NCBI GenBank assembly: GCA_904419545.1
Contig: CAJFRY010000001.1
Span: forward strand, 1-64,000
Source: Candidatus Woodwardiibium gallinarum
Lineage (GTDB): Bacteria > Bacillota > Clostridia > Oscillospirales > CAG-382
Direction of reading: 5' to 3'
DNA length: 64,000 nucleotides
Shown piece after piece: positions 6,422-10,708 of this stretch. Made by a program: the position numbers and the translations under genes. Below the pieces are notes generated by a model that saw only the letters and a program-made list of their open reading frames with translations, had not been told where the DNA came from and made no database searches. The stretch's first letter is position 1; each line of letters starts with the position of its first letter.

Positions 6422-7345
6422 TTGGCTTTCGTCATAGCATTTGCTCTTGCATTCTGCGGATGTGAATTGAATACTGCCGAAACTTCCTCCGATCCTCCGA
6501 TACCCATACCGGAAAATCCGACGGTTCTATGGACAGGAGGGGCACTCTATGAATATGTAGGCGAGTATATGCCCGGTGACTACGAGCCCGGCGGCAGGAA
6601 TTATATTGAAATCCCCGAAAATGAACGTTGGGAAAAAGAATTTCCCCTGTTCGGGAATACATATACTATGCAATGCTGTCTCCGATTTGAGAACGAGGAT
6701 CCGGCAATAAACGAGGTGTATGCATATGAGCTGCGCGAAAACAAAAGCACCGATTTTGCCATTAACTGGGATCCGGAACGAAATATGATTATTAAATTTT
6801 ATCTGCTTGGTTGGCCTTCGGAAGTAAAACGAAGCGAAGCTATAACGATTGAGGAGGCGGAAAAACGATGTCTGGCTTTTCTTAAAGAGCAGACGAACAG
6901 TTCCGACGGATGGGAAAAAACATATGAATATACCAATTTTGCCTATACAGATACAGATGACATCCGTAATTATGACTTTAAATTTCAGCAGAAGAAGAAA
7001 GATGTTGTTATAAAAGAGATTAACATTTGCACTGATGGATACGGAAATATCTTTCGTTATAAATGGTGCGTTTATAACGAAGACAGCGTCAATGTTCCCG
7101 AATGGCCGGAGGAATTTTACCTGAATATAGCCGAAGAAAAGCTGCGGACAGAATATGAAGATATCAGGGCCGTAGCAGAGCTCAAAGACATTCACATTGA
7201 CAGGGTTCGGTATGTATATATTGCTGATTATGGGAAATCCGCAATCAATCTTGTAACGCATTATACGCTTGTTTTCCATGACGACCGGCCAGAGCAGACG
7301 GTTCGTACGCGTATAGACATTTTGTTGAAAACCGATTCTTATTGA
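6422..7345 (+). CDS. Probable lipoprotein, start region frameshifted
   Basis: The frame encodes a hydrophobic signal segment (VLAFVIAFALAFCGC) followed by a polar Ser/Pro-rich linker and a ~250-residue extracytoplasmic domain. It resembles the lipoprotein at 8629-9681 (shared patterns around PEWPEEFYL and the tail). No ATG lies in frame; 6422 is TTG. A good start, AGGTAAGATGATGATGC at 6396-6411, lies just upstream in another frame. One extra A in the five-A run at 6412-6416 would join that start to this frame and give a normal lipoprotein signal. The gene is therefore either broken, slippery or affected by a sequencing error. Function is unknown. The 3' end abuts an IS110 remnant. Confidence 0.65.
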   Translation: MAFVIAFALAFCGCELNTAETSSDPPIPIPENPTVLWTGGALYEYVGEYMPGDYEPGGRNYIEIPENERWEKEFPLFGNTYTMQCCLRFENEDPAINEVYAYELRENKSTDFAINWDPERNMIIKFYLLGWPSEVKRSEAITIEEAEKRCLAFLKEQTNSSDGWEKTYEYTNFAYTDTDDIRNYDFKFQQKKKDVVIKEINICTDGYGNIFRYKWCVYNEDSVNVPEWPEEFYLNIAEEKLRTEYEDIRAVAELKDIHIDRVRYVYIADYGKSAINLVTHYTLVFHDDRPEQTVRTRIDILLKTDSY

Positions 7346-7478
7346 TTGCTTGAGGCAAAGCTTCAAAGCCTTCTTTACTGTTAGCAACAGTAAGAACATC
7401 AGCAAGGACTTCGCCTTCCGAATTGACAATAAAGCAATCATGCTTGTCCTTTGCAACATCAATTTCAACAATAATCAT
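7344..7478 (-). pseudogene. IS110-family transposase, N-terminal remnant
   Basis: Read from 7478 on the minus strand, the text VEIDVAKDKHDCFIVNSEGE, then SKEGFEALPQAI, matches the start of IS110-type DEDD transposases. The first catalytic Asp lies in the IDVAK motif. Only ~45 residues remain; the similarity stops where the lipoprotein gene begins. The rest of the element, including the C-terminal transposase domain, is absent. Confidence 0.75.
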
Positions 7479-7720
7479 TTTATAACTCCGATATGGTTTA
7501 TGTATCACAGAACACTTTACCTTGTAATCTCGTTCCAAATAAACCGTCGGGCGGTATCTAACTGATTAACAATACTGTAAAGAGCCGTGGTCGGAGTCTT
7601 AATTAAACCGTCTTGCGGCAGGAGGAACATACCAATCCACAGCATCTCTTACAGTGCAGTACGGTCCTTGCAGAGGGACAATAATGACTGTTTCTTTATT
7701 ATACGAGGAGCAAATACAAG
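7479..7720. other. Intergenic stretch, probably flank of the IS110 remnant
   Basis: No gene is supported here. IS110 elements carry long non-coding ends, so part of this AT-rich stretch may be the left flank of the lost element. A good ribosome-binding site for the next gene lies at its end. Confidence 0.4.
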
Positions 7721-8356: not shown

Positions 8357-8628
8357 AAGACTGATCTTATCCTTCTTGACTTACTGGTGCCAGTTTCCTA
8401 TGTGCTGCTCCTGCTGGCCGGAAAGAAGACCGCCCACGATCCGTCCGAGTCGCTGCCGGAAACAAAGCCGGAGCAGGATTCCGCCGGCTGACGGCACTTC
8501 CGCGAATTCGATGCCGCAGCCGGCGGTTAGGTCATACTGAAAAAATAGAGACAAGTGCAAATTGCCCATTGTGACATTTGCTGCCCGAATGTACCCCGAC
8601 CCATATTAAAACGAACAGGAGAATGAAC

Positions 8629-9681
8629 ATGAAAATCCAAAAGCTCGCTGTCCTCTGTATCCTGCTATGTCTGCTCTGTGCAGGATGTACGGAACCGCAA
8701 ACGGACGAATCAGCCGCCGTTTCGGAAACTTCATCAGAAGCCCCAATAGACTCAAGCCCGATCCGGAAGCCCGACGAACCGCTTGTCTTTTGTCTCGAAC
8801 CGCTATATTATTATGGTGAGGATGATTTAATCTATATTGAAGAGAATATAAACGGAAAGGAGACTACTATAAATAATCCATATTTTTTGCCATATTTTCC
8901 TAGGTGTTACGCATGGCATCTGATGCAGGAGGGCTATTATGAATTGCCATCTTCCTTTGAAATGACGCCGCCGATTACCGCCACAATTATGGGGCATGAT
9001 TACACAGGCGTATATGAGATAAGCACAACGGATCAATATCAGCATCGAATCGACCGTTATCACTTTTCGGTAAGAGAAGGCGATACGTTCAGTTCTTTCA
9101 ACTACGATGTGAAGCGGCAGAAAGTGGTCGGATTTCGATTCTGGTTTGATTTTCCGGAAGAATACTATGAGCTTACAACGATAATGGATGTGGAGGAAAA
9201 AAAGGAGCGATGTTTGGAGGCGGTAAAAACGCAAACCGGTATTCGTGAGGGTTGGGTAGAAAGCGAAGCGAATCGGAATATTTCCGGTTATACGGAGTTT
9301 CTGTTCAGCCAATATCAGCATAATGTCCGCGTAGCAAATGTTCTCGTAAAAGCCGATGAATACGGCCGTGTCATTATGATGGACTGGTCAGGGGTTGGTG
9401 ATTTTCCAAATGTTCGCGTCCCCGACTGGGAAGAGGAATACTATTTGGATTGTGTAAAGAAAAAATTGATATCCGCATATCAAATGCCTGAAGCAATAGA
9501 GGAGGTGCTCGAAGTTAAAGATTTTGCCATCGTATCGGATTCTATGTACTACCTCGCCGTCCCGGAACTATGCGTGGATACGGTGGCGTTTACCGTCACA
9601 TATACCACCGTGCAAGCCGATGGTACGGAAATTGAGCGGGATGCCCTTTTTGCGCTTGCTTATCAGCCCCATAAAGGCTAA
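8629..9681 (+). CDS. Probable lipoprotein, paralog of the 6422-7345 protein
   Basis: The 350-residue protein has an n-region MKIQK, a hydrophobic core and a CAGC lipobox with the acylated Cys near residue 20. An Asp/Ser/Pro linker and an exported domain rich in Tyr and Glu follow. The motif VRVPDWEEEYYLDCVKKKL corresponds to VNVPEWPEEFYLNIAEEKL in the upstream paralog. ATG 8629 was chosen over 8623 because AGGAG at 8617-8621 then has 7-base spacing. A strong terminator follows. The substrate or partner is unknown. Confidence 0.7.
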   Translation: MKIQKLAVLCILLCLLCAGCTEPQTDESAAVSETSSEAPIDSSPIRKPDEPLVFCLEPLYYYGEDDLIYIEENINGKETTINNPYFLPYFPRCYAWHLMQEGYYELPSSFEMTPPITATIMGHDYTGVYEISTTDQYQHRIDRYHFSVREGDTFSSFNYDVKRQKVVGFRFWFDFPEEYYELTTIMDVEEKKERCLEAVKTQTGIREGWVESEANRNISGYTEFLFSQYQHNVRVANVLVKADEYGRVIMMDWSGVGDFPNVRVPDWEEEYYLDCVKKKLISAYQMPEAIEEVLEVKDFAIVSDSMYYLAVPELCVDTVAFTVTYTTVQADGTEIERDALFALAYQPHKG

Positions 9682-9716: not shown

Positions 9717-9749
9717 CCGGCAAGCAGGGATGCTTGCCGGAATTTTTTT
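9717..9749 (+). terminator. Rho-independent terminator
   Basis: A perfect 10-bp stem (CCGGCAAGCA / TGCTTGCCGG) with a GGGA loop is followed by AATTTTTTT. It ends the lipoprotein transcript. Confidence 0.9.
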
Positions 9750-9770
9750 ACACAAATATGCAAAACCCTC

Positions 9771-9799
9771 TTGAAAAAGAACATATGTTCTTGTATAAT
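9771..9799 (+). promoter_or_regulatory. Strong sigma-A promoter (TTGAAA-17-TATAAT)
   Basis: The -35 box (9771-9776) and a perfect -10 box (9794-9799) are 17 bases apart, about 50 bases before the small zinc-ribbon gene. The spacer is almost entirely filled by a perfect palindrome, listed separately. Confidence 0.85.
9779..9790 (+). promoter_or_regulatory. LexA-type SOS box (GAAC-ATAT-GTTC)
   Basis: GAACATATGTTC is a perfect inverted repeat that matches the Gram-positive LexA/DinR consensus GAAC-N4-GTTC; with flanks the palindrome is 16 bp (9777-9792). It sits between -35 and -10, so bound LexA would block RNA polymerase. Control by LexA is inferred from the match and the position. Confidence 0.75.
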
Positions 9800-9849
9800 G
9801 CTTACATCATATCCCGATAAAGGAAAATAATAACAGGAGGCGTAAAGCT

Positions 9850-10047
9850 ATGATCAGGGTCAACTACATTGCGGACAGCTACCAGAAGGCATATGATTTT
9901 GTATACTGTCCGATTTGCAAAAAGGGCCGTTTGTGCGACAAACCGCGGGCGGCCGCAGTCTCGTTAGAGAAGATTCCCGTAGGCGCACACGTCGTTTTGA
10001 AGTGTCCCAAATGCGGTTCCCATTTTGCCGTTTCCACAGTTCGTTGA
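9850..10047 (+). CDS. Small zinc-ribbon protein, probably SOS-regulated
   Basis: The 65-residue protein contains CPIC near residue 20 and CPKC near residue 56, a likely four-Cys zinc ribbon, separated by a basic, Ala/Val-rich segment. ATG 9850 follows CAGGAGG with good spacing. It is a single-gene unit, with its own promoter carrying a LexA-type box and a terminator at 10122. A damage-induced nucleic-acid-binding or regulatory role is plausible but inferred. I do not recognise a named family. Confidence 0.7.
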   Translation: MIRVNYIADSYQKAYDFVYCPICKKGRLCDKPRAAAVSLEKIPVGAHVVLKCPKCGSHFAVSTVR

Positions 10048-10121: not shown

Positions 10122-10162
10122 GGGCATGACAATCGCTTAGAGGCTTTTGTCATGCCCTTTTT
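10122..10162 (+). terminator. Rho-independent terminator
   Basis: GGGCATGACA and TGTCATGCCC form a 10-bp stem with a 16-base loop, followed by TTTTT. It ends the zinc-ribbon transcript. Confidence 0.8.
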
Positions 10163-10210
10163 GTTATCCGTTTTTTCTGTTTCTGCAAATCAGAAAAGGA
10201 GGTCGAAACG

Positions 10211-10708
10211 ATGAAGCAATTCCATAAGACAAGTTATTCCAAAAACAAGGGCAGCGAGGACATCGTGTACCGCAGTGTGACGGGGGATTATTCCATCTCT
10301 CAGGAGGCGTTTCTGGACAGCGATCCGGCTCTGCGTGCGGAGGACTACGCTTTTTTCAAGCGCTGGTCGGATGAAAATTACAGGGCTGAGGACAGCCGGG
10401 ACGCAAAAGAAGCCAGACGCGTGCTGCCGCTGGAGCATATCTCCGCTCTGTCCGCTCCGGCCGGGGAGGAAGGGATATGCGCTGACGGCTCGGACGATCT
10501 GCGCAGTCTGGAAAATGCGCAAAGAATCCTGAACGCCGCTGCGCTGACGCCTGTTCAGAAGCGCAGGCAACTGGTTCTGCACTTTAGAGCTGATCTGCGT
10601 TTCCGGTCATGTATTTCGCAATGCGGTCTGCCTTATTTTTTTCGCGATTTTCCTGAGCGGTCGTCGGTACTTGAAAAGCAGCATTTGACCGGATTTTTTG
10701 ATGGTTGA
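10211..10708 (+). CDS. Sigma-70-like small protein with decayed C-terminus
   Basis: The N-terminus (KNKGSEDIVYRSVTGDYSIS, then ALRAEDYAFFKRWSDENY) resembles a family of short sigma-70-like proteins common in Clostridia, often on mobile elements. LTPVQKRR marks the usual entry to region 4. The following helix-turn-helix, where one expects FREIA-xx-EG-x-SY, reads FRSCISQCGLPYFFRDF, so key residues are lost. The ATG at 10211 has AAAGGAGG upstream. It may be inactive. The family assignment is from remembered sequence pattern and should be checked. Confidence 0.5.
   Translation: MKQFHKTSYSKNKGSEDIVYRSVTGDYSISQEAFLDSDPALRAEDYAFFKRWSDENYRAEDSRDAKEARRVLPLEHISALSAPAGEEGICADGSDDLRSLENAQRILNAAALTPVQKRRQLVLHFRADLRFRSCISQCGLPYFFRDFPERSSVLEKQHLTGFFDG

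Follow-up and report, generated by a model that had tools for sequence, protein, structure and literature searches.

A putative LexA-controlled zinc-ribbon gene that appears to derive from a mobile-element control module in a Clostridia genome

The 64-kb window (the whole stretch of DNA analysed) contains a small zinc-ribbon gene with a LexA-type box inside its promoter, followed by a terminator, a base-paired ribosome-binding site and a sigma-like open reading frame (Table 1). The zinc-ribbon gene appears to be what is left of a mobile element's control module, not an isolated repair gene of a new kind. The explanation that joins these features, a LexA-controlled, Com-like zinc ribbon from a mobile-element module acting on the gene downstream, is proposed at slightly less than an even chance of being correct as a whole.

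Table 1. Positions of the features at the zinc-ribbon locus within the window.
Feature	Coordinates	Strand	Basis
Terminator of the upstream gene	9717..9750	+	10-pair stem, then T run
Sigma-70-type promoter, TTGAAA-17-TATAAT	9771..9799	+	11/12 consensus
LexA-type box GAACATATGTTC	9779..9790	.	Sequence; box of this type also at recA and the Y-family polymerase gene
Ribosome-binding site of the zinc-ribbon ORF, AGGAGG	9835..9840	+	Sequence
65-aa zinc-ribbon protein (CPIC...C...CPKC)	9850..10047	+	ORF; same Cys in Clostridia homologues
Conserved terminator hairpin separating the zinc-ribbon and sigma-like genes, GGGCATGACAA...TTGTCATGCCC-TTTTT	10122..10162	+	Alignment with 13 other loci
Hairpin over the ribosome-binding site of the next ORF (AAAAGGAGG)	10168..10202	+	Computed pairing
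Diverged 165-aa ORF related to sigma-region-4-like proteins carried by elements	10211..10708	+	Two same-family genomes

The first-pass annotation had placed a LexA-type box in the spacer of a TTGAAA-17-TATAAT promoter, and this was confirmed: the box lies between TTGAAA (9771–9776) and TATAAT (9794–9799), which together match 11 of 12 consensus bases, and sits at the centre of a palindrome, AAGAACATATGTTCTT (9777–9792), that is perfect over 16 bp. It is the sole occurrence in the window of GAACN4GTTC, the published LexA operator of B. subtilis and C. difficile (PMC4234289). Shuffled sequences give 1.17 such sites; because about one is expected per 64 kb, the significance of the bare match within the window was dropped, and the weight of the box comes from its position and from its genome context. 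The gene upstream of the promoter (8578–9681) has its own terminator, which, judged from sequence, insulates the SOS promoter from it. Also near the locus, on the reverse strand (7245–7538), lies a truncated ORF that resembles, by eye, the N-terminus of an IS110-family transposase.

The organism very probably uses the GAACN4GTTC operator. Its genome (2.32 Mb, 69 contigs) encodes one LexA and one RecA and holds 17 exact sites, seven of which are non-coding by inspection, against about two expected on the assumption that 12–15% of the genome is non-coding (binomial P 0.002–0.008). These seven lie at the zinc-ribbon gene, at recA, at a second zinc-ribbon gene, at an ArpU/RinA-like regulator (two) and at mraZ (two). 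The recA promoter reads TTGACA-17-TATTCT-AATTAG-GAACATAAGTTC, with the box right after the −10 element, and GAACATTTGTTT stands just 5' of the start of the Y-family polymerase gene. Across the family, 11 of 29 recA genes carry an exact box and 22 of 29 a box with at most one mismatch, in a scan of the 250 bp preceding the matched domain with 0.01 exact boxes expected per gene. The earlier idea that the box would recur at both recA and lexA thus held for the former; at the organism's own lexA, which lies close behind another gene, the box was sought and none was found. With LexA encoded and the same box at recA and the Y-family polymerase gene, LexA control of the zinc-ribbon ORF is likely, and we regard such SOS control, as predicted, with good confidence.

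Tandem GAACN4GTTC palindromes, GAACGGGCGTTC and GAACGCTTGTTC, occur upstream of an apparent mraZ at C1:120053-120102 (L003). At C2:87789-88010 (L019), two sites surround the promoter and leader of a 146-aa ArpU/RinA-like phage-type transcriptional regulator, which matches phrog_36 (E 4.4e-11).

Alternatively, the box could have arisen by chance or serve a different repressor as its operator, in a locus that has decayed to a constitutive or silent fragment. The expectation of about one site per window and of about 1.6 exact boxes in upstream regions, on the assumption of 2200 genes, would allow for this, as would the divergence of the sigma-like ORF and the lack of the box at homologues, but a perfect 16-bp palindrome exactly within the spacer of an 11/12 promoter, the same operator at recA and the Y-family polymerase gene, boxes at the independent second zinc-ribbon gene, and an intact zinc-ribbon ORF with a good ribosome-binding site together make it unlikely. 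At the genome rate of exact boxes, about 0.0004 would be expected per 60-bp promoter. A check of box conservation at homologues found no exact box at L023–L027 or L029–L034, which weakens the case for conserved control but not for its presence here; LexA control of the module would be, as far as seen, a feature of the window locus alone.

The encoded protein has five cysteines (20, 23, 29, 52 and 55) rather than the four first counted, arranged with two CxxC motifs, CPIC and CPKC; close homologues keep both motifs and the fifth cysteine. No family assignment from Pfam, NCBIfam or PADLOC was convincing, and the candidate identities YacG, Trm112 and Cys-rich KTR were rejected, their matches being far below cut-offs. 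An AlphaFold model built from four sequences was poor (mean pLDDT 56) and a PDB fold search returned no significant match, so that the fold is a prediction from sequence only. Homologues are rare and scattered, a distribution that fits a mobile gene: a set of 197 relatives gave, besides the genome under study, a single good match and a single broken one, and at the level of the order 7 of 394 genomes carry a homologue, at that of the class 2 of 391, with the genome under study counted in. Within the same family, the zinc-ribbon search matched nothing besides the own genome. Viral contigs, phages and plasmids yielded no relative of the window protein, nor did viral contigs searched with an alignment or plasmids searched with the L025 protein; the L025 query matched one phage-labelled scaffold.

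The neighbourhoods of the homologues point to a mobile-element module. Gene order is mostly XRE, ImmA/IrrE-type (M78) peptidase, zinc ribbon, terminator and sigma-region-4-like gene, with recombinases or integrases nearby, and in every homologue examined a conserved leader and then the sigma-like gene lie 3' of the zinc ribbon. WYL, XRE and M78 (ImmA/IrrE-type) genes precede the zinc ribbon in L025, L027 and L029 (the WYL gene of L029 being seen in L035, the sequence around it, which also holds two tyrosine integrases). In L026, the zinc ribbon is preceded by S24 LexA-like, M78, XRE and M78 genes and followed by genes for a MazF-like toxin and a serine recombinase; in L034, a Y-family polymerase gene directly precedes it. 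Two IMG/VR contigs and MT838666.1, a metagenomic scaffold labelled as phage, carry XRE, M78, zinc ribbon and sigma-like gene together with a helicase (DinG-like by eye) and a serine recombinase. The element of the closest homologue also has a pemK RNA (RF02913, E 2.2e-8) at L026 3646-3762, before the MazF-like toxin gene. A literature search of incomplete coverage found no description of an XRE–M78–zinc ribbon–sigma-like module.

The window itself keeps the zinc ribbon, the conserved terminator and the sigma-like ORF of this module. The zinc-ribbon gene had been described as the only gene behind the promoter, but the sigma-like ORF comes next. Two same-family genomes hold matches to it (E 2.5e-8 to 1.2e-6, 26–30% identity), which align over the N-terminal 139 residues and each sit behind M78 and zinc-ribbon ORFs; through these matches to the window's own sigma-like ORF, three loci with the order M78, zinc ribbon, leader and sigma-like gene were located in the two genomes. 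Pfam, run on ten ORFs around the locus, gave no hit for the sigma-like ORF, and its C-terminal region 4 is not recognisable. No XRE, M78 or integrase/recombinase gene was recognised by eye among window ORFs of at least 110 aa. Since the terminator and the sigma-like ORF are kept while XRE, M78 and integrase are not recognised, we call the locus a remnant of the module, and its origin from a mobile-element control module is, in our judgement, likely.

The first-pass annotation had offered the gene as an SOS effector or inhibitor not described before. A related alternative accepts LexA control as real and has the zinc ribbon act elsewhere, on RecA, LexA or cell division, the downstream RNA being only a terminator. 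The SOS-type promoter agrees with such a role, and SOS modulators are indeed borne by mobile elements, among them RamT and RamA of ICEBs1, PsiB of F-like plasmids and gp7 of GIL01 (PMC11841131). Family and profile searches, however, found no similarity between the 65-aa protein and known SOS modulators, and the conserved leader and sigma-like gene behind every homologue examined point instead to a regulator of the sigma-like gene. An action elsewhere is improbable; with the module found in other Clostridia, the protein is more likely the regulator of the next gene.

That reading directs attention to the RNA between the two ORFs. A terminator does follow the zinc-ribbon gene, as first described, though not at once: it starts 74 nt past the stop codon. 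It exists in two sequence versions, GGGCATGACAA/TTGTCATGCCC and GGAGCCTTACA/TGTAAGGCTC, the window carrying the first, and 3 of its 10 pairs are altered on both sides yet kept. The terminator alone would explain part of the leader conservation. Beyond it, the GAGG of the sigma-like gene's ribosome-binding site is largely paired in the window (P(unpaired) 0.05, 0.11, 0.12 and 0.65), and in each of the eight leaders folded, the window's among them, pairing takes up most or all of this site. Thirteen leaders were considered, eight folded by script and the hairpins of L025, L069 and L071–L073 judged by eye only; the folded stretches exceed mononucleotide shuffles in stability (z −3.1 to −6.4). Rfam gave nothing credible in the window leader and no match in the zinc-ribbon leaders of L025–L027, the pemK RNA being the sole real match.

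Several relatives also encode, past the terminator and ahead of the hairpin masking the ribosome-binding site, a short ORF of 13 residues, MRxxWQPYIAKYP-stop. The peptide was recognised by reading the leader sequences, after which a pattern scan of IMG/VR added a further two loci with the same gene surroundings; it occurs in L027, L029, L031, L032, L033 and L069, at L079 5980-6009 (−) and at L080 2892-2921 (+), and is not present in the window leader. Its stop codon sits at the 5' arm of the hairpin, which would suggest ribosome-arrest control, and the peptide is a possible ribosome-arrest leader peptide.

The most likely functional parallel of the zinc ribbon is phage Mu Com, a zinc-finger translational activator of 62 aa with four zinc-binding cysteines, which binds a hairpin beside the translation inhibition structure of the mom mRNA and so turns mom translation on (PMC6483171). 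The window protein matches phrog_6417 'translational regulator' weakly, at only E 0.058, for which reason we claim that it may work like Com, not that it is Com; gpCom is not among its listed PHROG matches. The MT838666.1 homologue reaches E 0.0017 against phrog_6417. The second zinc-ribbon gene of the organism's own genome, likewise of 65 aa (C19:644-838; L014, L074; region C19:514-838), has SOS-type boxes, GAACAAAAGTTC and AAACAAATGTTC, around its promoter, and its product matches gpCom (phrog_13819) weakly at E 7e-4. Taken by itself, a Com-like RNA role of the window protein is plausible, though somewhat likelier to fail than to hold; no other link in the combined explanation is as weak.

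Transcription factors often contain zinc ribbons, and the constant linkage to a sigma-region-4-like gene would also suit a transcription factor or an RNA-polymerase or sigma partner of the sigma-like protein in place of an RNA-binding translational regulator. That assignment fits poorly with an intergenic leader whose nucleotide sequence is conserved and in which the following ribosome-binding site is paired, and the weak profile matches that carry an assigned function are to gpCom and to a translational regulator; we consider it quite improbable.

Under the preferred explanation, a LexA-controlled Com-like zinc ribbon, we infer LexA binding, induction, RNA binding and activation at the window locus as follows. 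LexA on the spacer box would bar RNA polymerase from the promoter, and RecA-stimulated LexA cleavage upon DNA damage would free it; these two steps are proposed because of the box, its position and the presence of the same box at recA and the Y-family polymerase gene. The transcript would comprise the zinc-ribbon ORF and then the conserved terminator hairpin, and readthrough past the terminator would reach the sigma-region-4-like ORF with its base-paired ribosome-binding site. The zinc ribbon may then bind the leader RNA, as Com binds the mom leader, and, so bound, would let the downstream gene be expressed upon DNA damage. Extended to Clostridia mobile elements at large, a DNA-damage-controlled relay in which a Com-like zinc ribbon relieves both the terminator and the ribosome-binding-site block of the sigma-like gene is a doubtful generalization, its damage control lying perhaps with ImmA-type proteins in the elements and with LexA in the window remnant.

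If true, this arrangement would tie the host SOS response directly to the expression switch of a mobile element via an RNA-binding zinc ribbon, a regulatory mode already known from phage Mu, and would give a testable function to small zinc-ribbon genes named by no curated family searched.

Compared with known systems, the window locus shares with the LexA regulon of Bacillus subtilis and Clostridia the same operator inside a sigma-70-type promoter, whereas we found no SOS regulon in which the presumed target, an element-type zinc-ribbon gene, is named. In the DNA-damage response of the integrative element ICEBs1, ImmA/ImmR parallel the XRE and M78 genes that stand directly before the zinc ribbon in the homologous loci; the window locus, unlike these, has neither XRE nor M78 and carries a direct LexA-type box instead. 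Although the downstream gene of the com-mom system of phage Mu is mom, while here it is sigma-like and RNA binding is predicted, in both a small multi-Cys protein is encoded immediately 5' of a gene whose RNA structure conceals its ribosome-binding site.
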